Part shown: positions 1 to 10,032 of the stretch, one piece after another | Numbering within the stretch: position 1 is the stretch's first letter | Layout: every line of letters starts with the position of its first letter | Source of the DNA: an uncultured Acidobacteriota bacterium | GTDB taxonomy: Bacteria > Acidobacteriota > Thermoanaerobaculia > UBA5066 | Length of the DNA stretch: 10,032 nucleotides | Reading direction: 5' to 3' | Assembly (NCBI GenBank): GCA_937902605.1 | Contig: CALFNC010000554.1 | Location: forward strand, 1 to 10,032 | Position numbers and translations under genes: made by a program | The notes under the pieces: model-generated | The model's database searches: none | What the model was told of the DNA's origin: nothing | Seen by the model: the letters and a program-made list of their open reading frames with translations, nothing else

Positions 1-473
1 GCTGTCCGGCGGCACCCGCCGTCGAGGTCGACGCGTCGGTCAGGTCCGGACCGAGCGCCGCCGTCGTCGCCGGCTGGACGGCGGCCTGTCTCAGCGCAGC
101 TGGGCGCGGGAAGGGGACGATGTCGGTCCTCCTCTGCGGTGACCGACGGATGAGGACGCTGAATCGCGTATGGCGGAAGATGGACCGGCCAACGGACGTC
201 CTCTCGTTCCCATCCGGCGAGACGGGTCGGGCGGCGTTCGTCGGCGACGTCGCGATCGACGTGCCGTACGCGGAGCGCCAGGCCCGCCGGCTGGAAAACT
301 CCCTCGAGCGCGAGGTGCAGGTTCTCCTCGCCCACGGAATCCTTCACCTCCTCGGCCACGACCACGAGACCGATGACGGGACGATGTTCGCCCTCCAACG
401 GCGCCTTGTTCGCAAGGTCTTCGGGCCCGGGCCGGACGGCGTTCCCCCTACTGGCCGGAGGCCGGCGTCGTGA
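1..473 (+). CDS. ybeY: Endoribonuclease YbeY (rRNA maturation factor), 5' partial
   Basis: YbeY is a zinc-dependent single-strand endoribonuclease that acts in 16S rRNA 3' maturation and ribosome quality control in the cytoplasm. The signature H-x3-H-x5-H metal motif is read as HGILHLLGHDH at bases 333-365. It is preceded by the family hallmark DRPTDVLSFPS (from about base 182). The frame is open from base 3 to the window edge. The ATG at 120 falls inside the conserved strand that normally leads to the LN...R..DRPTDVLSF block, so it is an internal methionine and the true start lies upstream of the window; 156 residues are visible. The C-terminal tail after the metal motif is Pro/Arg-rich and unremarkable. 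The TGA stop at 471-473 overlaps the GTG start of the next gene by 4 bp. The ybeY-CorC-era order is a widely conserved operon, which supports the call. Confidence 0.93.
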   Translation, partial: CPAAPAVEVDASVRSGPSAAVVAGWTAACLSAAGRGKGTMSVLLCGDRRMRTLNRVWRKMDRPTDVLSFPSGETGRAAFVGDVAIDVPYAERQARRLENSLEREVQVLLAHGILHLLGHDHETDDGTMFALQRRLVRKVFGPGPDGVPPTGRRPAS

Positions 474-1756
474 GCTTCACCGCCTTCATCGCGCTCCTCC
501 TCGCGGGGCTCTTCGCCTTTCTCTACTTCATCCTCTCGTCGTTCGCTCACGCGATCGAGAGCCTGTCGGACATCCGCCGCAAAGCGCTCGTGGAAGAGGA
601 GCCCGACCGTTTCGGCCGGGTCCTCTCCGGGACGAACGAGGGGCCCTCCCGTATCGCCGCGCGCCTCACCGCGCAGGGCGCAGTGCTGGGGGGGCTCTTT
701 GCGACGACATCGGCGCTCGTCGCCCTCGACGCTCCGGAGCCGTGGCTCCTCGCGGCGGCCGGGATCCTGGTCGGCTGGCTTCTCCTCGAGCTGGCGGTCC
801 TCCGGTCTGTCTCCCGGCGCGGCCCGGAGGCGCTCCTCGTGGACTCCTCCTGGCTGATTCCGATCGTGGCGCTCTTCTCCGTCCCCCTCACGCCGCTCTT
901 GACCCGGCTCACCGCGCGAAGGCCTGGCCCGCCGGAGGAGGACGTGTCGACGCCGCAGGAGAAGGAGGCCGCGAAGGAGGCAGATGTCCGCGCGCTCCTC
1001 GATGTGGGGCGCGAGGAAGGGATCCTGGAGAAGCACGATGCGGAGCTCGTGTCCCGGGCGGTCGACTTCGGGGACCGGACCGTGGGAGAGGTGATGACGC
1101 CACGCCCCGACATGACGGTCGTGGAGGTGGACACGCCTCTCGACGCCGTCGCCGACCTGCTCGTCCAGACGAAGTTCACGCGGGTCCCGCTCGTGGAGGG
1201 CGGGATCGACCACCCGGTCGGGATCGTCCATGTCAAGGACGTCTTCACCGTCCTCCGCTCTCCCGCGCCTCCGGCCACGGCCCGCCCGGTGTCGCGGCCC
1301 GTCCTCTTCGCGCCCGAGACCCAGACGATCCGGACGCTCCTCGGCGATTTCCGGAGGCGACGGCAGCAGATGGCGATCGTGGTGGACGAGTTTGGCGTCG
1401 TTTCGGGGCTCGTCACCCTGGAGGATCTCGTGGAGGAGCTGGTCGGCGAGATCGCCGACGAGCATGAGGTGGGGCTGGACCCGGTCGTCCCGCTGCCGGA
1501 CGGCGGGTTCTCCATCGCCGGCCGCGTCCGGGTCTCGGAGGTCGAGGGGCTCTTCGACGTCACGTTCGCTTCCGGCGACTACGACACCATCGCCGGCCTC
1601 GTCTCGGCAAAGCTGGGACACATCCCTAGGCCGGGCGAGACGGTGGCGGAGGCGGGGCTCCTCTTCACGGTGGAGGAGTCGGACCGGCGGCGGATCCACC
1701 GGGTGCGGGTCGCGCGGAGCGACGGCGGCGAGAAGCCGGCAGGAGGCGAGGGATGA
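470..1756 (+). CDS. CNNM/CorC-HlyC family transporter-like protein with CBS pair
   Basis: This 428-residue inner-membrane protein has the full CNNM/CorC layout. A DUF21-type hydrophobic N-terminal part covers about residues 1-145, with membrane segments near 5-25, 68-86, 93-112 and 126-146. A linker follows, then CBS domain 1 at about 205-262 (VGEVMTPRPDM is a typical CBS-pair entry) and CBS domain 2 at about 272-330 (DEFGVVSGLVTLEDLVEEL). A CorC_HlyC domain closes the protein at about 337-418. Members are linked to Mg2+/Co2+ export or tolerance; the older name hemolysin C is not a functional claim. The GTG start at 470 overlaps the ybeY stop. The TGA at 1754-1756 overlaps the ATG of era, so all three genes are translationally coupled. 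The exact ion is not readable from sequence. Confidence 0.92.
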   Translation: MSFTAFIALLLAGLFAFLYFILSSFAHAIESLSDIRRKALVEEEPDRFGRVLSGTNEGPSRIAARLTAQGAVLGGLFATTSALVALDAPEPWLLAAAGILVGWLLLELAVLRSVSRRGPEALLVDSSWLIPIVALFSVPLTPLLTRLTARRPGPPEEDVSTPQEKEAAKEADVRALLDVGREEGILEKHDAELVSRAVDFGDRTVGEVMTPRPDMTVVEVDTPLDAVADLLVQTKFTRVPLVEGGIDHPVGIVHVKDVFTVLRSPAPPATARPVSRPVLFAPETQTIRTLLGDFRRRRQQMAIVVDEFGVVSGLVTLEDLVEELVGEIADEHEVGLDPVVPLPDGGFSIAGRVRVSEVEGLFDVTFASGDYDTIAGLVSAKLGHIPRPGETVAEAGLLFTVEESDRRRIHRVRVARSDGGEKPAGGEG

Positions 1757-2661
1757 ACGAGGAGAACGGCTCTTCTCCGGGGCGCCGCTCGGGAACGGTC
1801 GCGGTGATCGGCCGTCCGAACGCCGGCAAGTCGACGCTCGTCAACGCGCTGGTCGGCCAGAAGATCGCGATCGTCTCCGACAAGCCACAGACGACGCGGC
1901 GGAGGATCCTCGGCATCCGGACCGCTCCCGAGGGGCAGATCGTCTTCGTCGACACGCCGGGGCTCCACAAGCCGCTCCACCGCCTCAATCGCGTGATGCT
2001 CGCCGAGTCGATCGAGGCGATGCGCGAGGTGGACGTCCGTCTGCTCGTGATCGACGCCTCGGTGCCGTCCGGCGGGGGAGACCGGTACACGTTCGACCTC
2101 CTCGCGAAGGAGGAGCCTCCACGCATCGCCCTCCTCAACAAGACCGACCGGATCGAGAAGCGGGTCCTCCTCCCCCGGATGGCCCAGCTCGGGGAGCTCG
2201 GCATCTTCGACGAAATAGTCCCGGTCTCGGCCCTCCGCGGCGACGGCCTCGACATGCTCGTCCCGCTCCTCTATCGCCACCTCCCGGGTGGGGACGACCT
2301 CTTCCCCGAGGGGACGGTGACGACGACCGGTCAACCGGTCCGGATCGCCGAGATCATCCGGGAGAAGTTCCTCGAGAGGACCCGCGAGGAGATCCCCTAT
2401 GGCCTCGGCGTCGTCATCGACGACATCGCCCGGGACGACGCGAAGAACCTGACGGTCGTGATGGCGACCGTCGTGGTCGACAAGGACAACCACCGGAAGA
2501 TCGTCCTTGGCTCCGGCGGGAGGATGATCCGGGATTCGGGGACGGCGGCCCGCATGGAGCTGGAGAAGACGTTCGGGGGACGGTTTTTTCTCGACCTGAA
2601 CGTCCGGTCACGTCCTGGCTGGAGGGAAGACCCCCAATTCCTCTCGACCCTCACGAGCTGA
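1753..2661 (+). CDS. era: GTPase Era
   Basis: Era is an essential Ras-like GTPase that binds the 3' end of 16S rRNA and assists 30S assembly. The 302-residue length is typical. The G1 P-loop GRPNAGKS is at residues 20-27. The G2/switch segment DKPQTTRRRILGI is at about 43-55. G3 DTPG is at 67-70, followed by LHKP as is typical of Era, and G4 NKTD is at 129-132. The KH RNA-binding domain occupies about 205-290 and carries the GxxG loop (GSGGRMI) with the family ending FLDLNVRSRPGWR. The start ATG lies in an ATGA overlap with the upstream CBS-protein gene. Together with YbeY upstream it forms a ribosome-maturation operon. The stop is only 6 bp from the stop of the convergent GTPase gene, and no stem-loop terminator is visible between them. 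Confidence 0.96.
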   Translation: MNEENGSSPGRRSGTVAVIGRPNAGKSTLVNALVGQKIAIVSDKPQTTRRRILGIRTAPEGQIVFVDTPGLHKPLHRLNRVMLAESIEAMREVDVRLLVIDASVPSGGGDRYTFDLLAKEEPPRIALLNKTDRIEKRVLLPRMAQLGELGIFDEIVPVSALRGDGLDMLVPLLYRHLPGGDDLFPEGTVTTTGQPVRIAEIIREKFLERTREEIPYGLGVVIDDIARDDAKNLTVVMATVVVDKDNHRKIVLGSGGRMIRDSGTAARMELEKTFGGRFFLDLNVRSRPGWREDPQFLSTLTS

Positions 2662-2667
2662 GCCGAG

Positions 2668-3810
2668 TCATCCGCGGGAGGCCGGTTCTTCCGAATCGCG
2701 GGCGGGACCGCCGTCGGGCTCGCCAACGGCGCCGCGGAGGGCGGTCAGCACGCGGTCCAGTTTCCCTTCCAGCTCGGTGATGCGCCGCTCCAGCACCTCG
2801 TAGTCGGCCGGCGTTCTGGCGGGCATGACGGTCGGGGCCGGAAGGGTGTCGCCCGACGCGTCGAATTCGGTCTCGTCTTCCGAATCGATGGAGCGATCGA
2901 CCGAGAGCTCGTGGGGCTCGGCATGGTCCGCGTTGGGCGGGTGAAGCTCCGCATCCGTCGGAGGAGGCTCGAGCTGGATCAGCTCCTCGGGAGCGGGCGC
3001 TTCGGGAACCCGGAGCGGGATCCCGAAGATCTCGTCGATGGACGGGGACGGGAGCTCCGCCGAAGTCTCGAAAGGCGAGTCCGGCGACGGAGAAGGCTCG
3101 ATGAACGCAGGACGGGTCACCGCCGGCACTGGCGCGGCGACGGCAGGCTTAGGGGGACCAAAAACCCTTCCGCGTCCGGTCCCGGTGGCGTCCGCCCGGA
3201 GAACTGCCAGGCTCGTCGGGCGCTGCAGCTTCCGCATCAGGTTGATGAACGTCAGCTTGGACGCCAGCTTGAAGGTCTCCACGATGCCCCGGCCCTCGAG
3301 CGCGACCGCCTCGACGAACGGGAGGTCGCCGAAGCCGAGCGACTCCTGGAGCGCCTCGACGGAGAGGATGCTGGGCAGGTCTCGCTTGTTGTACTGGATG
3401 AGCGTCGGGATCGACTCGGGAGCCACACCCATCTCCCGGAGGTTGTCCCGGAGGTTCTGGTACGACTCGAGGTTGTGCGACAGCATCGACCACTGCGAGT
3501 CGACGACGAAGACGATGCCGTCCACGCCCTTCAGGACCAGCTTGCGCGTCTCGTTGTAGAAGACCTGGCCGGGAACGGTGCAGAGCTGGAAGCGGACGGC
3601 GTACCCCTTGATGTTTCCGAGCTCGACCGGAAGGAGGTCGAAGTAGATCGTCCGGTCCTGGGCCGTGGCGAGCGAGAGAAGCCGGCCGGTGGACGCCTGG
3701 TCGAGCCGTTCGTGCAGGGCCTTCAGGTTCGTCGTCTTGCCGGAGAGTCCGGGACCGTAATAGACGACCTTCGCTGTCAGCTCTCGGGTCGTGTGGTTGA
3801 AGAGGACCAT
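2668..3810 (-). CDS. MglA-like small GTPase with long disordered tail and C-terminal coiled coil
   Basis: Residues 1 to about 195 are an MglA-family Ras-like GTPase domain. In Myxococcus this family controls polarity and gliding motility; relatives are common in Deltaproteobacteria, Acidobacteriota and Thermus. The P-loop GPGLSGKT is at 19-26. Switch II reads TVPGQ at 78-82, the MglA form in place of DTAGQ, and NKRD is at 141-144. Residues from about 200 to 340 are Pro/Glu/Asp-rich and probably unstructured. Around 345-370 a heptad-like stretch (VLERRITELEGKLDRVLTAL) predicts a short coiled coil. The start at 3810 was chosen because MVLFNHTTRELTAKVVYYGPG matches the family N-terminus, an AGGAG lies 11 nt upstream, and a -10-like TATACT lies between this ATG and the longer alternative at 3876. 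No MglB/roadblock partner is visible. Tail to tail with era. Confidence 0.88.
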   Translation of the reverse strand: MVLFNHTTRELTAKVVYYGPGLSGKTTNLKALHERLDQASTGRLLSLATAQDRTIYFDLLPVELGNIKGYAVRFQLCTVPGQVFYNETRKLVLKGVDGIVFVVDSQWSMLSHNLESYQNLRDNLREMGVAPESIPTLIQYNKRDLPSILSVEALQESLGFGDLPFVEAVALEGRGIVETFKLASKLTFINLMRKLQRPTSLAVLRADATGTGRGRVFGPPKPAVAAPVPAVTRPAFIEPSPSPDSPFETSAELPSPSIDEIFGIPLRVPEAPAPEELIQLEPPPTDAELHPPNADHAEPHELSVDRSIDSEDETEFDASGDTLPAPTVMPARTPADYEVLERRITELEGKLDRVLTALRGAVGEPDGGPARDSEEPASRG

Positions 3811-3884
3811 CTCGGAAACGGCTCCTGCGGATTGACGTGGGGGACCGGAAAAGTATAGGCCGATCGGGATTACCATCCTCCGGC
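3811..3884. promoter_or_regulatory. Divergent intergenic region with overlapping promoter-like elements
   Basis: On the plus strand, TTGACG (3832-3837) and TATAGG (3854-3859) are separated by 16 bp. This would put a transcription start near 3866, some 20 nt before the ATG at 3885. On the minus strand, TATACT (3857 down to 3852) is a five-of-six -10 match. It would start a transcript about 35 nt ahead of the GTPase ATG at 3810, though its -35 is poor. The two -10 elements share the same bases, so the two promoters may compete. This is a motif-level prediction only. Confidence 0.45.
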
Positions 3885-4727
3885 ATGGCGGGAAGGGAAG
3901 ATCGGGTTCAGACGCAGCTGGCGGGGATCCCGGTCTCCGGCGTCTCCATCGCGGGCCACGAGACCTGGTTCCACTTCCCGACGCTCGGGCTGGCGTTCGA
4001 CCTCGGCCGGGCTCCGACCGAGCTCGTTCCCGTCTCCCACGTCTTCCTGACGCACGCCCACCTCGACCACGCGGCCGGACTCGCGTACTGGTGCTCGCAG
4101 CGGCGGCTCGCCCGGCTGGGAGGGGGCATCGCCTGGACCGACCCCTCCACGGTCGACACGTGGCGCACGATCTTGGGCCTGCATGCCCGGCTCGAGGGAG
4201 TCGAGTACGACGCGGCGGTCGAGCCGATGGCTCCAGGCGAGACCATGGTCTTGCGGAAAGACCTCGAGGTGACCGCTTTCCGGGTCGCCCACCGCGTCCC
4301 GGCGCTCGGGTTCGTCGCTTCCGAGCGGCGCCACCGGCTCAAGCCATCGTGGCGCGGCCGCGGTGCGGACGAGATCCGGGAAGCGACGGCGAGGCGAGAG
4401 GAGGTCTCAGAGAGCTGGACCCGTCCTCTCGTCGCCTTCTGCGGGGACACCTCGGCCGACGTCTTCCGGATCGCCCCCCCGGAGGTCTTCCGGGCGAAAG
4501 TCCTCCTCCTGGAGTGCTCGTTCGTCGAGGACGAGCACAAGGACCGGGCGAATGGCTGGGGGCACATCCACCTGTCCGAGCTCGCCGATCACTCCGACCT
4601 CTTCGAGAACGAGGTCGTCGTCCTCACACACCTCACCCTGCGCACCGGACCGGCCGAGATCCGGCGCCTCGTCAACAAGAGACTTCCGCCCGGCCTCGCC
4701 GCACGGACCGTCCCGTTCCTTCCCTGA
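3885..4727 (+). CDS. RNase Z-like metallo-beta-lactamase-fold hydrolase
   Basis: This 280-residue protein has the beta-lactamase-fold metal motif THAHLDH at residues 56-62, preceded by FDLGRAP, which resembles the strand before the motif in RNase Z (tRNA 3'-endonuclease) relatives. Later features fit the same branch: a VAHRVPALGFVASERR segment, FCGDTSADVF with a metal-ligand-type aspartate, LLLECSFVEDE followed by GHIHLSE, and a final LTHLTLRT. The closest family is the short RNase Z-like MBL group; a phosphodiesterase acting on another nucleic-acid or nucleotide substrate is equally possible. The start at 3885 is preferred over a GTG at 3837 because 3837 overlaps the predicted -35. No strong Shine-Dalgarno is seen. 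The stop is 3 bp before the membrane-protein start, so the pair is probably one transcript. Confidence 0.85.
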   Translation: MAGREDRVQTQLAGIPVSGVSIAGHETWFHFPTLGLAFDLGRAPTELVPVSHVFLTHAHLDHAAGLAYWCSQRRLARLGGGIAWTDPSTVDTWRTILGLHARLEGVEYDAAVEPMAPGETMVLRKDLEVTAFRVAHRVPALGFVASERRHRLKPSWRGRGADEIREATARREEVSESWTRPLVAFCGDTSADVFRIAPPEVFRAKVLLLECSFVEDEHKDRANGWGHIHLSELADHSDLFENEVVVLTHLTLRTGPAEIRRLVNKRLPPGLAARTVPFLP

Positions 4728-4730
4728 ACC

Positions 4731-6275
4731 ATGGACCACGAAGCGGAGATCTGGGTCAAAGGGACGCTCTGCCTCCTGGGGCTCCTCGCGTTCCTCTGGC
4801 GGACGAGAGTGGGGAGCCCGCTTCCCCGGGGGAAAGCGGGGCAGCTGGTGGGGGCGGCCGCGTTTGCGGCGGTCCTCGCCTACTACAACTTCGGCCTTTT
4901 CCACGGCCGGGGGTACGTGCATCACTGGGAGACGTTTCACTACGTCCTCGGGTCCAAGTACTTCCCGGAGCTCCGCTACGACGGCCTCTACGCTGCTTCC
5001 CTCGCCGCGGAGGCCGAGGCCTTCCCGGGAAAGCCGTTGCCTGCCTTCGTTCGCGACCTCCGGACCAACGACGTCGTCCCTTCGAGGACGATCGAGTGGC
5101 ACATGGGGGAGGTCAAGCGGCGCTTCACGCCGGAGCGCTGGCGCCAGTTCGTCGCGGACAACGCCCATTTCGTCGTGAGCAACGACCCGTCCTACCTCGC
5201 GCAGATTCGGACCGACCACGGGTACAACCCGACTCCGGCCTGGACGTTCGTCGCCCGTCTCTTCGACGGCCGGCTCCCGGTCGACGGGACGACCCTGCCG
5301 CTCTGGGCGTCGCTCGATCTCATCCTCCTCGCAGCGACCTTCGTCTTCGTTTTCCGATCTTTTGGCAGCTGGGCCGGAACGGTCGCTCTCCTCGTCTTCG
5401 GACTCGGCTACACGTGGCGGTTCGACTGGGTGGGCGGCGCGTTCCTTCGTCAGGACTGGCTCGCGGCGTCGGTCATCGGCCTGTGCATGCTGAAGCGGGA
5501 GCGTTGGGCGGCGGCGGGAGCGCTCTTCGGCTATGCCGCGTCGGTCCGGCTCTTCCCGGCGGCCTTCCTCTTCGGTCCCGCCGTCCTCGGGCTCCGCGCG
5601 ATCCTCCGGAAAGAGGAGACCGCCTGGCTCCGGAAGCTCGCGTCCGGGTTCGTCCTCTCGGTCGCCCTCTGGCTCGCCGCCGGCTCCCTCACCGGAAGAG
5701 GCGTGGCCGCGTGGGGCGAATTTGGCAGGAACTTCCAGAAGCATCGCCATACATGGCTGACGAACAACGTGGGCCTGAAGAACCTCCTCCTCTACGGGCC
5801 GGAAACCTTCGAACGCCGGCTCGTCGACTTCTCGCAGCCGGAGCCGTGGCTGAAGTGGCAGAAGAAGATGGACGACATGGAGGAGGCGCGGAAGCCGCTT
5901 CTCGCCGTCGCGTCGCTGGCGTTCCTGGGGATGGTGGCCGCGGCGGCCTGGCGGGCGGGGCGCGTGGAAGCCGCGCTTCTCGGCATCCCGGCGTTCTTCG
6001 CGGCCGGCGTCCTGACCTGCTACTACTGGGTGGTCCTCGTCGCGCTCGTCCTGACCGGGCGAAGGTGGCTCATCGCGGGGGTCATGGCGGTCAGCGTCGT
6101 CCTCTTCGCCGCGGATCTCCTCACGCCGTCGTTCGAGGCGATCTACGGTCTCGCGTCGTGGCTCCTCGCGTCGCTCTTCGCCTGGTGGTCGGTTCAGGTG
6201 GCGCTGGGAATCACCGAAAGACCTTCTTCCGATTCCGGATGTAGTCGCGGAAGACGAACGAAGCGAGGTCGGTAG
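4731..6275 (+). CDS. Polytopic membrane protein, GT-C glycosyltransferase-like (unassigned)
   Basis: This 514-residue protein has about ten hydrophobic segments, roughly at residues 9-25, 37-57, 188-210, 214-230, 242-256, 258-283, 303-323, 386-406, 412-428, 433-475 (two passes) and 480-500. A soluble loop at about 60-185 contains HHWETFHYVLGSKYFPELRYDGLY and many aromatic and charged residues. An early extracytoplasmic loop followed by many helices resembles the GT-C fold of lipid-linked-sugar transferases (GT87/DUF2029-like), but no catalytic motif is certain. The start is 3 bp after the upstream hydrolase stop. The last ~22 codons run antisense through the 3' end of a VWA-gene remnant. The region from codon 369 onward recurs, diverged and internally deleted, at 8658-8856. 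The function is not known. Confidence 0.78.
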   Translation: MDHEAEIWVKGTLCLLGLLAFLWRTRVGSPLPRGKAGQLVGAAAFAAVLAYYNFGLFHGRGYVHHWETFHYVLGSKYFPELRYDGLYAASLAAEAEAFPGKPLPAFVRDLRTNDVVPSRTIEWHMGEVKRRFTPERWRQFVADNAHFVVSNDPSYLAQIRTDHGYNPTPAWTFVARLFDGRLPVDGTTLPLWASLDLILLAATFVFVFRSFGSWAGTVALLVFGLGYTWRFDWVGGAFLRQDWLAASVIGLCMLKRERWAAAGALFGYAASVRLFPAAFLFGPAVLGLRAILRKEETAWLRKLASGFVLSVALWLAAGSLTGRGVAAWGEFGRNFQKHRHTWLTNNVGLKNLLLYGPETFERRLVDFSQPEPWLKWQKKMDDMEEARKPLLAVASLAFLGMVAAAAWRAGRVEAALLGIPAFFAAGVLTCYYWVVLVALVLTGRRWLIAGVMAVSVVLFAADLLTPSFEAIYGLASWLLASLFAWWSVQVALGITERPSSDSGCSRGRRTKRGR

Positions 6276-6303
6276 GGGACGCGTAGTACGCGCGGCTGTG
6301 GGC
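6150..6303 (+). repeat. Diverged direct repeat, left copy (partner 8731-8884)
   Basis: This 154-bp block aligns without gaps to 8731-8884 (offset 2581) with 10 mismatches, about 94% identity. It contains the 3' end of the membrane-protein gene and the antisense 3' end of the VWA gene. Both edges are sharp: base 6149 and base 6304 no longer match. A second collinear block, 5834-5915 against 8658-8739, is offset by 2824. The two offsets differ by exactly 243. Confidence 0.93.
6211..6303 (-). pseudogene. 3'-terminal remnant of a VWA-domain gene (left copy)
   Basis: Read on the minus strand, these 31 codons encode AHSRAYYASPTDLASFVF followed by RDYIRNRKKVFR and a TGA stop. This is the same C-terminus as the intact VWA protein at 8792-9880, with one residue change (Ser for Gly). 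Four of the five nucleotide differences between the two are synonymous. Homology stops abruptly at 6303/6304, where the truncated maturase reading frame takes over, so everything upstream of these codons is missing. The fragment overlaps the 3' end of the membrane-protein gene on the opposite strand. Confidence 0.85.
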
Positions 6304-6727
6304 TGGAAAATTCCTAGCTGTCCACGCTCGACTCCGCGAGAAGTATCCGCGGTTCTATTCGAGAGAAAGCGAAGGCTTCGACCCGGAACACTTGGCACCC
6401 TGTGGCGCAGGCGTCAGGGCGTTAACGGTCACGTGGACCGGCGCATGTAAGATGTGCCCGATGCAGCCCATTGGCTGGTTTGACCTAGCCACGGCGTACG
6501 ATGTCCTGACCGAATCGAGCCAGGAAAGGATGAAGGTCGCTGCAGCCCTCAGGCCGCCATCGCTTGAAGCGTGTCAAGGCTGTTCACGTTCTTTCGATTG
6601 CTTGGATTGTTATCTAAGACCACTGAACCAGCTGGCGGCGGGACAGATCACGCAAGACGATTGTCAATGGTATCGGTCTGAGCGGGCCGCTCTCCGGGCC
6701 GCCGGGCTTTCGAGCGTCTTCCCATGA
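6304..6727 (+). pseudogene. 5'-truncated radical SAM/SPASM-like peptide maturase, C-terminal part
   Basis: The frame is open from the repeat junction (upstream in-frame stop TAG at 6284-6286, inside the repeat) to TGA at 6725-6727, giving about 140 residues. It reads FLAVHARLREKYPRFYSRES, then CGAGVRALTVTWTGACKMCPM, then FDLATAYD, then CQGCSRSFDCLDCYLR and DDCQWYRSER. CxAG...G..xxC followed by CxxCx5CxxC and a last Cys is the arrangement of SPASM-type auxiliary Fe-S cluster domains in radical SAM enzymes that modify ribosomal peptides or proteins. The catalytic CxxxCxxC half is absent, cut off at 6303/6304. Internal TTG 6392 and ATG 6452 or 6461 could start a short product, but none has a clear ribosome binding site. 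It overlaps the ABC ATPase start by 4 bp (ATGA). The family assignment is by pattern; SPASM is the best guess, not certain. Confidence 0.6.
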
Positions 6728-7422
6728 CGGCACACGAGACGGTGGTTCAGGTCCGGGCGCTGGGGAAGGAGTTCCAGCGGCGTGGTGAGGTCGTACAGGC
6801 CCTCACCGACGTCAGCTTCTCGATTGGGAGAGGCGAAGTTGTAGGCTTCCTCGGCCCGAATGGCGCGGGAAAGACGACGACGATCCGGATCCTTCTCGGG
6901 CTTCGGAGGGCGACCAGGGGCGAGATTTGCATTACTGCGCGGCGGGTCGGCTTCGTCCTCGATGTTCCGGCGCTCTATCCGCACTTCACTCTCGAACGTA
7001 ATCTCGAGTTCTACAGCGAACTCCTCGGCCTCGCCCCGAGAGCATGGGAAGCACACATCCCGACTCTCGGCCTGTCAGATGTCGTGAAGGTCCGTGTTAG
7101 GGAGCTTTCCCTCGGGATGAAGAAGCGCGCCGAGCTGGCCCGCGCGCTTCTTGGGGAGCCCGATCTCCTCCTGCTCGACGAGCCAACGACCGGTCTGGAT
7201 CCGCAGGCGCAAGAGACGTTCCGCAAGGTCCTCCGGGCCGAAGCGGAAAAGGGAGTCTCGATCCTGATGACGAGTCACGACCTCTTCAACGTCCAGAAGG
7301 TCTGCGACAGGTTCCTGGTAATTCGGCAGGGGCGGATCCTGGTCGACGAATCGGCCGATGGCCGCGATGCCGAGGCACTCGAACGGCTCTACCTGGCGGC
7401 GATGGCGGGAGAGGAATCATGA
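6724..7422 (+). CDS. ABC transporter ATP-binding protein (BcrA/natural-product exporter type)
   Basis: This 232-residue single nucleotide-binding domain energises export through the permease encoded next. Walker A GPNGAGKT is at 44-51. The signature motif is LSLGM (128-132) in place of LSGGQ. Walker B LLLLDEP is at 148-154, the D-loop GLDP at 157-160 and the switch His at 185 (MTSHD). The usual Q-loop glutamine is not evident: the segment reads VGFVLDVPALYPHFTLERNL at 75-94, close to the form seen in BcrA and lantibiotic-immunity ATPases (IG.LIE.P.LY..LT...NL). The gene is coupled by ATGA overlaps to the maturase fragment upstream and the permease downstream. It uses more A/T-ending codons than the resident genes. 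The likely role is export of, or self-protection from, a peptide product. The substrate is unknown. Confidence 0.9.
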   Translation: MTAHETVVQVRALGKEFQRRGEVVQALTDVSFSIGRGEVVGFLGPNGAGKTTTIRILLGLRRATRGEICITARRVGFVLDVPALYPHFTLERNLEFYSELLGLAPRAWEAHIPTLGLSDVVKVRVRELSLGMKKRAELARALLGEPDLLLLDEPTTGLDPQAQETFRKVLRAEAEKGVSILMTSHDLFNVQKVCDRFLVIRQGRILVDESADGRDAEALERLYLAAMAGEES

Positions 7423-8117
7423 AGGCGCTTATCAAGAAGGAAATCCGGCTCCTCATGGAGGCGTCTGGAATGGCCGTCCTATTAGATTTCCTCCTCCCCG
7501 GCGTGGTGCTGCTCTTCGCGATGGCGACCGCGAAGTTGCATGCTCTCTCGCCGGGTCAGGCGGGCGTCGATTCCTTCGCCCTCTTCGCGACCTGCTCCTT
7601 CGGCCTCTCGAGCATGTTCCTCAGCCTGACCGCCCCAATCGCTCTCCTCGAACGGGTGACTGGAATTCTCGATACACAGCTCGCCCTCGTCGGGTCGCCC
7701 CGGCCGATCCTCTTGGCGAAGGTCGCCGTACTTGCGGGTCTCGCAACCGGGAGCTTTGCCGTCTGGGCTCTAATCGGGTTCGGAGTCTCACGGTTCATGG
7801 CGATCCCCTTTGTCAGCGTCGGGGCAGGGGGCCGTGCCCTATTTGTCGTGGCTGTCGTCTTTCCCCTATCGATCGGCCTCCTTTCGGCACTTCACATCTT
7901 CGTCGGTACCGTCTTTCCAAAGGTGGCGCCTCTTGCGAACATTGTCCTTTTCGTTGTGTCGTTCGTTGCCTTTTCAAATCTCACGTCTCTCTCGGCCGGC
8001 TTGACGAACACGGCGGTAGTGAACCTCGTTGTCATGCTGGTCTGCATGGGAGCCGTCCTGGTCGCTGTGATCTGGTTGATGGGTCTACTCCCCCGCGAGC
8101 GGCTTCTGGGGTCGTAA
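7419..8117 (+). CDS. ABC-2 type transporter permease
   Basis: This 232-residue protein begins MKALIKKEIRLLM, a common start of ABC-2 permeases. About six membrane helices lie near residues 17-38, 53-76, 97-120, 137-161, 166-186 and 200-223, with a short basic C-terminus. It is the membrane partner of the ATPase encoded just upstream; the ATG overlaps the ATPase stop in an ATGA. One ATPase and one 6-helix permease would assemble as a dimer of each, as in BcrAB- and CcmAB-like exporters. AT-ending codons such as cta, tta and gat are more frequent than in neighbouring genes, in keeping with acquired DNA. The gene ends 87 bp before the insertion-sequence end, and no further operon gene is seen in that gap. 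Confidence 0.87.
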   Translation: MKALIKKEIRLLMEASGMAVLLDFLLPGVVLLFAMATAKLHALSPGQAGVDSFALFATCSFGLSSMFLSLTAPIALLERVTGILDTQLALVGSPRPILLAKVAVLAGLATGSFAVWALIGFGVSRFMAIPFVSVGAGGRALFVVAVVFPLSIGLLSALHIFVGTVFPKVAPLANIVLFVVSFVAFSNLTSLSAGLTNTAVVNLVVMLVCMGAVLVAVIWLMGLLPRERLLGS

Positions 8118-8203
8118 GAAGGGCTTTGGTTTCGGATCCAGGTGGCTATTGCCACAGCGCCTCCCCTTACCGGTGGTTTCTCCTGGACCGCCACTTGGCC
8201 TGA
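8118..8203. other. Short gap between permease gene and IS end
   Basis: No credible gene is present. A 5-bp stem with a 4-base loop (GTGGC TATT GCCAC, 8142-8155) is too short and lacks a T-run, so it is not called a terminator. Confidence 0.5.
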
Positions 8204-8463
8204 GAGCCTGTGAAGAAATCGGGAACGCGGCTTGACAGAGTAATCAGGAAGGCACAGATTTCTTCATGCTCGAAAAGAAGACCGAGAACGAGGGTGAGAG
8301 CGGGAGCGCCCGGATCCTGACGCCGGAGCGGGAGCAGGTGGAGCTGCGAGAGTTTTGGCTGGACGGAGCGATCCCTGCGGGGCACCCAGTGCGTGCGGTG
8401 TGGGCGTTCGTTGAAGGATTGGACTTGACGGACTTGTACCGGGGAATCGGTTCGGTAGAGGGG
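8204..8463 (+). mobile_element. Left end of a truncated IS1182-like insertion sequence
   Basis: The terminus is taken from GAGCCTGTGAAGAAATC (8204-8220), which resembles the ends of this IS group, and the element continues into the transposase N-terminus. The right end is missing: transposase similarity stops at about 8463, where unrelated high-GC coding sequence begins on the other strand. TGAAGAAATC (8211-8220) and GATTTCTTCA (8257-8266) form a perfect 10-bp inverted repeat whose right arm covers the first base of the transposase ATG. A TTGACA at 8232-8237 sits in the loop. A target-site duplication cannot be determined with one end lost. Confidence 0.65.
8266..8463 (+). pseudogene. Truncated IS1182-family transposase, N-terminal 66 codons
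   Basis: The reading frame from ATG 8266 gives an acidic, low-complexity first 20 residues. It then reads QVELREFWLDGAIPAGHPVRAVWAFVEGLDLTDLYRGIGSVEG, the typical N-terminal block of IS1182-like (DDE) transposases (D/ELREFWLD..IP..HPVRAVWAFVE.LDL..LY). In intact relatives the next residues run into GRPA-DPRILLALWLYA; here the frame instead enters unrelated sequence after codon 66. The DDE catalytic core is therefore entirely absent and the product cannot transpose. AGGAAGG at 8246-8252 is a possible ribosome binding site. The open frame continues to 8856 by chance through the downstream fragments. Confidence 0.75.
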
Positions 8464-8464
8464 G

Positions 8465-8642
8465 GGCTGGACGACCGGCGACGGACCCGCGGCGCCGACC
8501 GGCCCCTTCGTGAAGCGGAGGAAGGCGAGGGAGGCGGAGCCGAAGGCGGTCGTTCCCTGGAGGCCGAGGAGGGCCCCGGTCCGGACGGCGTCGGCCGGGT
8601 TGACCAGGACGGAGGCGAAGACGGCCGCGAAGATCTCGTGGC
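8465..8642 (-). pseudogene. Internal fragment of a probable ABC-2 (NosY-like) permease
   Basis: Read on the minus strand, this stretch gives HEIFAAVFASVLVNPADAVR followed by TGALLGLQGTTAFGSASLAF and LRFTKGPVGAA. Virtually every codon ends in G or C, matching the resident coding style and opposing a chance frame. The NPADAVRTGALL...G..AF..ASLAFLRF...GAA pattern is like the last part of NosY-type ABC-2 permeases, where an NP.DA.R motif precedes the final helix. No start, stop or ATPase partner is present. One side abuts the truncated transposase, the other the membrane-gene fragment. It is unrelated to the permease at 7419-8117. The family assignment is tentative; its status as former coding DNA is firmer. 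Confidence 0.45.
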
Positions 8643-8657
8643 GGTTCGACTGGGTCG

Positions 8658-8856
8658 GCAGCCGGAGCCGTGGCTGAAGTGGCAGAAGAAGATGGACGAC
8701 ATGGAGGAGGCGCGGAAGCCGCTCCTCGCCCTCGCGTCGTGGCTCCTCGCGTCGCTCTTTGTCGCGTGGTCGGTCCAGGTGGCGCTGGGAATCACCGAAA
8801 GACCTTCTTCCGATTTCGGATGTAGTCGCGGAAGACAAACGAAGCGAGGTCGGTAG
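8658..8856 (+). pseudogene. Internally deleted second copy of the membrane-protein gene 3' end
   Basis: Bases 8658-8739 match 5834-5915 and bases 8732-8884 match 6151-6303. The two blocks share TCGCGTCG (8732-8739), which in the left copy occurs twice (5908-5915 and 6151-6158). The right copy therefore looks like the left one after loss of 243 bp (81 codons, in frame) between 8-bp direct repeats. The encoded part is QPEPWLKWQKKMDDMEEARK then PLLALASWLLASLF and the same arginine-rich tail to TAG 8854-8856. No start codon or N-terminal part belongs to it. Confidence 0.85.
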
Positions 8857-8884
8857 GCGACGCGTAGTAGGCGCGGCCGTGGGC
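8731..8884 (+). repeat. Diverged direct repeat, right copy (partner 6150-6303)
   Basis: This is the partner of the left copy, with 10 mismatches in 154 bp. Here the VWA coding sequence continues intact beyond 8884, so this copy carries the functional 3' end of the VWA gene (stop codon at 8792-8794, minus strand). Confidence 0.93.
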
Positions 8885-9880
8885 GACCTTCGTCAACGTC
8901 TCGACGAAGTCGACGAGGGCCGGGTCGGTCGCGATCATGAAAGTGGTCAGCTGGACTCCCTCCCTGCGGCACCGCTCGGCCTCGTCGAGCGTCCGATTGA
9001 CGATCTTCAGGTCGAGGCCGAAGGGGTTCTTGTAGAGGTGGCCCCCCTCGTGGATGCAGGACGGCTTGCCGTCGGTGATCAGGAAGATCTGCCGGTTGGG
9101 GGTCCGCCGGCGCGAGAGGAGGCCGCGGGCCAGGGCCAGGCCGGCCTTCGTGTTCGTGTGAAACGGGCCGACCTGCGCCCGGGATAGCTCCTCGAGGCGG
9201 ACCGGGTAGGCGTCGTCGCCGAACAGGACGACGTCGATGGTGTCCTTCGGGTACTTTTGGAGGATCAGCTCGGTCAAGGCGAGCGCGACCTTCTTGGCGG
9301 GCGTGAAGCGATCCTCTCCATAGAGGACCATCGAGTGTGAGATGTCGATCGCGATCGCCGTCGCACAGGAGCTCTGGTGCTCGACGTCGAAGACCTCCAG
9401 GTCGTCGGGCTGGAGCATCAGCTCGTCGATGTCGCGCCGGGTCGCGTTCGCGACCGACCGGATGCCGTCCAGGCGTGAAAGGTCGTCTCCGAACTCGTAC
9501 GTGTGCGTCTCCGGGAGCTGCTCGGATCCGCCTCCCGGGCGGGGGACCGAGTGGAAGCCGGCGCCCGACTTCGTGAGGGCGGAGAAGATCTCCTCCAGGG
9601 CGGCTCGGCGGATCTGCCGCTCGCCGGCACCAGCCAGCGCGAGGTTCCCTTCGGCGTCCCGGCCAACCAGGCCCTTCGCTTCGAGGGCTTCGCGGAAGGC
9701 TTCGATGTCGACATCCGGCGAGATCCAGCCTTTCCGCTGGAACTCCCGGAGCGCCTCCAGCGCCTGCTCGACGTCCCCGCCCAGCCGGGTGACCAGATCG
9801 AGGAAGAGACGAAGCAGCTCCTCGAACGTGAGGAGCGACTGCAAGAGGTCGAAGGGAAGCTCCCCGTACCGGTAGTCCAC
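8792..9880 (-). CDS. VWA-domain protein (CoxE/magnesium-chelatase-associated type)
   Basis: This 362-residue protein has a helical N-terminal region (1 to about 155, including LTFEELLRLFLDLVTRLGGDVEQALEAL) and a von Willebrand A domain at about 170-345. The metal-ion-dependent adhesion site is complete: DISHS at 179-183 (DxSxS), Thr243 in the HTNTKAG loop, and Asp270 in LITDGKPS. Such stand-alone cytoplasmic VWA proteins usually work with a MoxR or magnesium-chelatase-like AAA+ ATPase to remodel a partner or insert a metal; no such ATPase is in the window. The GTG start at 9880 is chosen because a purine-rich AGAGGAGG precedes it and MDYRYGELPFDLL fits the family beginning. The frame is open further upstream to the window edge, so a longer protein is not excluded. 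The 3' end overlaps the membrane-gene fragment on the opposite strand. Confidence 0.88.
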   Translation of the reverse strand: MDYRYGELPFDLLQSLLTFEELLRLFLDLVTRLGGDVEQALEALREFQRKGWISPDVDIEAFREALEAKGLVGRDAEGNLALAGAGERQIRRAALEEIFSALTKSGAGFHSVPRPGGGSEQLPETHTYEFGDDLSRLDGIRSVANATRRDIDELMLQPDDLEVFDVEHQSSCATAIAIDISHSMVLYGEDRFTPAKKVALALTELILQKYPKDTIDVVLFGDDAYPVRLEELSRAQVGPFHTNTKAGLALARGLLSRRRTPNRQIFLITDGKPSCIHEGGHLYKNPFGLDLKIVNRTLDEAERCRREGVQLTTFMIATDPALVDFVETLTKVAHGRAYYASPTDLASFVFRDYIRNRKKVFR

Positions 9881-9888
9881 TCCCTCCT

Positions 9889-10032
9889 CTACGACGGAGG
9901 AGGCGGAAAGGACGTTCCTCCGGGGAGCCAGTTGATAGGCCGCGAGAGCGTTCGCATCCTCCCACCGGACGAGCGGAAGACGACACGCAGGTCGTGGCGC
10001 CCCTCGTCGCCCGGGAGGAACGGCAATCGCGC
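9889..10032 (-). CDS. C-terminal end of an unidentified upstream gene (partial)
   Basis: On the minus strand a frame enters from the window edge and stops at TAG 9889-9891, 8 bp before the VWA GTG. Its 47 codons read DLRVVFRSSGGRMRTLSRPINWLPGGTSF and end in PPPPS. Its third codon positions are richer in G/C than those of the VWA frame extended upstream, and the 8-bp spacing to the next start is operon-like. I do not recognise the family. Confidence 0.4.
   Translation of the reverse strand, partial: ARLPFLPGDEGRHDLRVVFRSSGGRMRTLSRPINWLPGGTSFPPPPS

Follow-up and report, generated by a model that had tools for sequence, protein, structure and literature searches.

A probable SPASM-domain remnant of a radical SAM enzyme overlaps a complete ABC ATPase and a probable permease gene in an Acidobacteriota genome

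The window, the whole stretch of 10,032 nucleotides of contig C554 that was analyzed, carries three plus-strand reading frames at 6304-6727, 6724-7422 and 7419-8117, none of which contains an internal stop codon (0 in the three frames). Two ATGA overlaps join them, as the initial annotation had described: the ATG at 6724 overlaps the stop codon of the first frame (6725-6727; four bases shared), and the ATG at 7419 overlaps the stop codon of the second (7420-7422). The first frame, open from position 6287 and thus 17 bases into host DNA, most likely encodes a headless radical SAM (rSAM) protein, that is, a C-terminal SPASM domain without the AdoMet core. The second encodes a complete ABC ATPase (ABC_tran, E 1.7e-26, profile 1-137/137). 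The third encodes a complete, all-helical permease, which has no Pfam or NCBIfam match and has relatives in public databases.

This insert is bounded by two complete host genes. On the left, a plus-strand gene at 4731-6275 encodes a membrane protein with a weak mannosyltransferase-like match (PF05007, E 0.012, below the cut-off) and is colinear with locus L025 of a same-genus genome (G199). On the right, a VWA-domain protein (PF13519, E 2.2e-9; 94% identical in G199) is encoded on the minus strand at 8792-9880. A direct repeat flanks the insert. Its left copy (D1, 6136-6303) consists of the 3' end of the left host gene and, in antisense, the final 31 codons of the VWA gene (VWA residues 332-362 match 6214-6306). 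It is 90% identical to the right copy at 8717-8884, which runs into the VWA gene according to the repeat and L025 alignments.

Downstream of the permease gene lie several scraps. A plus-strand 5' scrap of an IS1182-family transposase is located at 8266-8487 (NF033551, E 5.7e-6, residues 20-61 of the 8266 frame); within it, 8310-8487 shares 74% identity with a section of a 431-aa transposase open reading frame in L127. The following 113 bases (8490-8602) are 96% identical to another G199 contig (C290), which is higher than the 86-88% identity of the flanks to that genome; a guess that this piece is NosY-like was unsupported and was dropped. Two further plus-strand scraps at 8637-8739 (repeats D4 and D2), resembling 5413-5438 and 5834-5915, are what is left of a second copy of the left flanking gene. 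The minus-strand frame 8245-8838 had no Pfam match.

The insert genes are foreign in composition. Their GC3 values were 0.62, 0.76 and 0.75, compared with 0.85-0.91 in six neighboring genes, and their synonymous-codon z values were -10.8, -6.8 and -9.1. The z reference comprised five of the six native genes, which necessarily score close to 0 themselves; the sixth, outside the reference, scored 0.4. Both measures bear out the excess of A/T-ending codons reported in the initial annotation.

In the 141-residue translation of 6302-6724, cysteines are found at residues 34, 49, 52, 91, 94, 100, 103 and 121, in agreement with the previously listed pattern (CGAG...GACKMC, CxxCx5CxxC and a last Cys). 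They can be written as CX12GX4C-gap-CX2CX5CX2C-gap-C. The SPASM motif, in the excerpt of PMC6231123 that defines it, reads CX9-15GX4C-gap-CX2CX5CX3C-gap-C. In the fragment, the seven SPASM cysteines and the motif Gly all line up with this motif, with one spacing of X2 instead of the published X3, and the pattern (X2 or X3 allowed) occurred in 0 of 200,000 shuffles of the fragment. Among 68 Acidobacteriota relatives, the last spacing was X2 in 65 and X3 in 2 (1 was not parsed), a share biased upward because the relatives were gathered with X2-type sequences. Judged from these sequences, the X2 spacing is plainly common among relatives. The earlier proposal that the Cys spacing lies outside any named subfamily is weakened: the pattern departs from the SPASM motif in a single spacing (X2 in place of X3), which is weak ground for postulating an undescribed family.

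Curated models did not recognize the fragment. TIGR04085, the search suggested initially, was negative, as was Pfam SPASM (PF13186); support comes instead from related full-length rSAM genes, one of which, L038:9127-10245, also falls short of the PF13186 cut-off (21.0 against 21.5). The two NCBIfam matches of the fragment were to the C-terminal parts of TIGR04084 (rSAM/SPASM) and TIGR03906 (amine dehydrogenase maturation protein), at E 0.08-0.09. PF04055, the AdoMet-binding core, had no match in the fragment, and the bases before 6304 are host DNA. The source genome holds 19 Radical_SAM matches and none to TIGR04085 (0 of 1).

A search of 198 phylum genomes with the single fragment (E 0.001) retrieved only the fragment itself. 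Searches at E 0.01 gave four places in 147 class genomes and four in 395 phylum genomes, together seven distinct non-self places spread over seven genomes, G192 being present in both searches. Three of the seven (L029, L030 and L035, in genomes G472, G473 and G282) lie in frame on full-length rSAM/SPASM genes, with weak E values of 3.9e-4 to 9.4e-3. The matches in L027, L028, L036 and L037 fell in frames without a SPASM profile match and were dropped as chance. One of these, L027 (E 1.8e-4), outranks the best real match (3.9e-4), and an rSAM gene adjoins it in another frame. Seven phmmer matches above the inclusion threshold in open reading frames of the fetched loci were all rSAM genes, the loci having been chosen for such genes. 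Searches with the fragment of PDB sequences (E 10) and plasmids (tblastn, E 0.01) gave no match, and 52 stretches aligned from public genome contigs included 0 relatives. Viral contigs yielded nothing with either the fragment or the permease as query.

Alignment of the fragment with five SPASM regions from three genomes revealed 11 invariant columns, comprising the seven Cys, the motif Gly and one further Pro, Leu and Gly each. A profile of the 68 relatives, built without the fragment, scored 29.1 bits on it; the highest scores among 2000 plain and 2000 Cys-held shuffles were 9.1 and 25.3. With a five-sequence profile, the corresponding scores were 29.8, 11.2 and 23.2. The fragment exceeds the Cys-held shuffles by no more than about 4 bits; most of the profile signal is therefore the cysteine register, and the profiles are somewhat circular, because it was the fragment that first retrieved the relatives. 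Modeled on its own, the fragment gave an unusable structure (pLDDT 37.8), on which no fold search was based. The motif register, the invariant columns and the profile score agree with the SPASM-type rSAM C terminus proposed in the initial annotation. We conclude that 6304-6727 most likely represents the C-terminal SPASM domain of an rSAM enzyme without its AdoMet-binding core, an assignment that appears good on sequence grounds, though without curated-model confirmation.

The rSAM/SPASM peptide maturases AlbA, PqqE, MftC, SuiB and CteB have a seven-Cys SPASM-type C-terminal domain, which the fragment probably shares. In contrast to them, the fragment lacks the AdoMet radical core and any peptide-binding domain, its last spacing is X2 rather than X3, and no curated family matches it. 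The nearest SPASM domains detected belong to Acidobacteriota cassettes (L031, L032, L038 and others) and show 20-27% identity with the same CX2CX5CX2C spacing. In these cassettes, however, the rSAM genes are complete and accompanied by PqqD-like, HPr-kinase-like, S24/signal-peptidase-like or lasso-B2-like genes, and the ABC pair of the window is beside none of the 42 rSAM loci examined.

Two types of such cassettes were observed in passing. In two genomes of the class to which the window belongs, PqqD-like, HPr-kinase-like, rSAM/SPASM and lasso-B2-like genes stand in a row (L031:5374-7974 and L032:4756-7476), shortly downstream of a very large repeat protein. The HPr-kinase-like genes, so named by eye, had no family match; in L032, the one tested, the lasso-B2 match was over the cut-off and the PqqD match below it. 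Two or three clustered rSAM/SPASM genes were seen in L038:9124-15120 (minus strand), L071, L074, L076, L077, L078, L080 and L081. These cassettes mostly include an rSAM/SPASM protein of about 650-700 aa with a C terminus that is HPr-kinase-like by eye (in the L038 copy, Pfam matched the Radical_SAM part only). They also carry PqqD-like genes (one, in L074, was tested), S24/signal-peptidase-like genes (the L038 one below the cut-off) and sometimes a methyltransferase gene. Our literature search found no paper on multi-rSAM/SPASM cassettes of Acidobacteriota.

In the ATPase, the Q-loop sequence is GFVLD and the signature sequence is LSLGM. Its nearest NCBIfam models are drrA and the lantibiotic-protection ABC model, both below the cut-off (148.7 bits against 309.75 for the latter, TIGR03740). 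A presumed likeness to lantibiotic-immunity ATPases was given no weight. For the permease, a model of modest quality (mean pLDDT 62.8) is all-helical, as predicted; the predicted count of six helices is plausible, but the model has seven of 18 residues or more. A fold search gave 168 PDB matches, none at E < 0.001 and all at E 0.2 or worse. A mycobacterial efflux pump, CcmABCD and PmtCD ranked 1, 2 and 6 among them, and ExbBD occupied ranks 3-5. Two PDB sequence matches to the permease profile (E 0.059 and 0.77) were taken as chance. The permease is complete and probably ABC-2-like. A full ABC_tran domain with an adjoining helical membrane protein fits an ABC transporter with separate ATPase and permease, presumably an exporter.

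A protein search with permease residues 60-180 returned 11 proteins (P0002 at 100% and ten at 60-99% over the searched region, two of these partial), and tblastn of the permease against plasmids at E 0.001 returned none. The permease recurred in 1 of 39 other genomes (G202) and in 0 of 395 others in a second set. Aligned against public genome contigs, it gave 29 stretches with one relative, RA.bin138, which is the same locus as that in G202. In RA.bin138, of the same family (JAKLER010000015.1; locus L024), the ATPase is 59% and the permease 49-50% identical, with the same gene order and overlap. No SPASM gene was found near this pair in the 19 kb examined of the 27.7-kb contig. Directly upstream of the pair, L024:5678-8068 encodes a 796-aa protein with a carboxypeptidase-regulatory-like match below the cut-off.

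We also scanned 44 loci, 42 of which hold 71 rSAM/SPASM genes in stretches of 4-19 kb. The permease was present in 0 of the 42. With the ATPase of the window as query (E 1e-5), the 44 loci gave five protein matches besides L024. Fused-type ABC exporters lie 110, 369 and 763 bases from an rSAM gene in L081, L085 and L103, another lies about 5.9 kb from one in L098, and L071 has a lone 225-aa ATPase about 4.7 kb from an rSAM gene. An intact operon of an rSAM gene and this ABC pair was found neither on the RA.bin138 contig nor in the 42 rSAM loci, and our literature search revealed no paper on this operon.

These data bear on a possible, though less probable, alternative, according to which the ABC pair is a general exporter unrelated to peptide maturation, with the SPASM tail placed upstream of it by rearrangement. 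Such an exporter would suit the RA.bin138 pair, which follows the carboxypeptidase-regulatory-like gene with no SPASM gene in the 19 kb examined, and the scores of the ATPase, which are below the cut-offs of all listed families. It is opposed by the four-base overlap of the SPASM frame with the ATPase gene and by the foreign codon usage common to all three genes. The same two features agree with the initial view of a SPASM C terminus in one operon with the ABC pair. Since the 19 kb examined in RA.bin138 include no SPASM gene and none of the 42 loci has the permease, what ties the exporter to the maturase is the overlap of the genes and their common composition.

The same-genus genome provides the empty site: in G199 (L025), the two flanking genes are adjacent and the insert is absent. 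Two segments of the window, 279-6303 and 8731-10025, align to L025, and 154 bases of L025 are covered by both alignments. These bases are identical to the two window copies at 139 and 137 positions, and the window copies agree with each other at 144. The alignment stops at 6303, coinciding with the 6303/6304 junction at which the initial annotation had placed the truncation; the bases upstream of it are the host gene and the 3' end of the VWA gene. Eleven VWA loci were fetched from 15 matching relatives among 19 searched. Up to 1.5 kb next to the VWA gene (some 0.5 kb in L021) was compared with 6304-8640 by blastn at 1e-5, and none of the loci matched; apart from G199, 10 relatives showed no insert beside this gene. 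G199 is the one genome in which both host genes were checked for full adjacency.

Could the junction be an assembly artifact? In that case, contig C554 would fuse host reads with those of another organism or strain, and the rSAM gene may be intact in nature. The source genome is 77% complete in 563 contigs, the segment is compositionally foreign, and 10 of 154 positions are different between the repeat copies, a divergence that strains may show. However, such a join does not predict four successive right-hand scraps (IS1182, a host-lineage piece and two flanking-gene pieces), and both flanking genes are still complete. We consider a chimera unlikely. The diverged direct repeats and the IS1182 and host-gene scraps at the flanks instead lead to the conclusion that the rSAM core was cut off at 6303/6304. 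The truncation of the rSAM gene is well supported, and in our reading the insert is old, with a flank that was duplicated and is decaying. Homologous recombination via the host-gene/VWA segment may have integrated it, giving rise to the flanking repeats, and the right copy may then have shed pieces at short repeats; these steps are less certain.

That 6304-6727 is a complete small metal-binding protein rather than an rSAM tail is very improbable: translation from TTG 6392 would yield a 111-residue product with all seven motif cysteines, and no curated rSAM or SPASM model matches, but the columns common to full-length rSAM genes and the profile score speak against it, as does the frame, which is open and foreign for about 29 codons before that TTG without an ATG, GTG or TTG there.

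In summary, the locus is probably a laterally acquired operon fragment: its first gene has a SPASM-type domain only, and the ABC ATPase and the helical permease encoded after it are both complete. The best reading is a relic of an rSAM, perhaps RiPP-type, operon of which the exporter survived. The locus has the appearance of gene decay of a familiar kind and not of a new system. With the 5' side of the operon absent, the precursor peptide proposed in the initial annotation and peptide modification by the complete operon are putative. An active AdoMet radical enzyme requires the radical SAM core, and a SPASM remnant alone cannot be one. Since the first protein has no such core and cannot cleave AdoMet, the modifying activity would have been lost.

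The ABC pair may still be functional and may expel a membrane-active or hydrophobic compound, by analogy with yydIJ and skfE/F. According to an excerpt of PMC8172795, an rSAM gene accompanies a two-gene ABC transporter in skf (skfB with skfE/F) and thuricin CD (trnC/D with trnF/G). For yydG with yydIJ, an excerpt of PMC7026026 states that YydIJ was proposed to confer immunity and proved a minor resistance factor. The Bacillus loci yydFGHIJ (epipeptide) and skf (sporulation killing factor), in each of which an rSAM gene is joined by a two-gene ABC transporter with a proposed role in resistance or export, are likened to the window by gene layout; unlike them, the locus here has no rSAM core, known precursor or protease. 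The exporter role is our best guess from operons of this layout, and it is weakened by RA.bin138 and the 42 rSAM loci.

A bolder proposal, which we hold to be rather improbable, is that the donor population carried an undescribed Acidobacteriota rSAM/SPASM peptide-maturation operon, in which translation of the maturase was coupled to that of a two-gene exporter for self-protection. The host here would then be a "cheater" with the exporter and without the maturase, resistant without making the peptide. If the exporter is such an orphan self-protection pump, it would mark a lineage that dropped peptide production and kept resistance, and the contigs of its relatives P0003-P0009 would be candidates for carrying the complete operon. 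Otherwise, the locus would be an ordinary relic.
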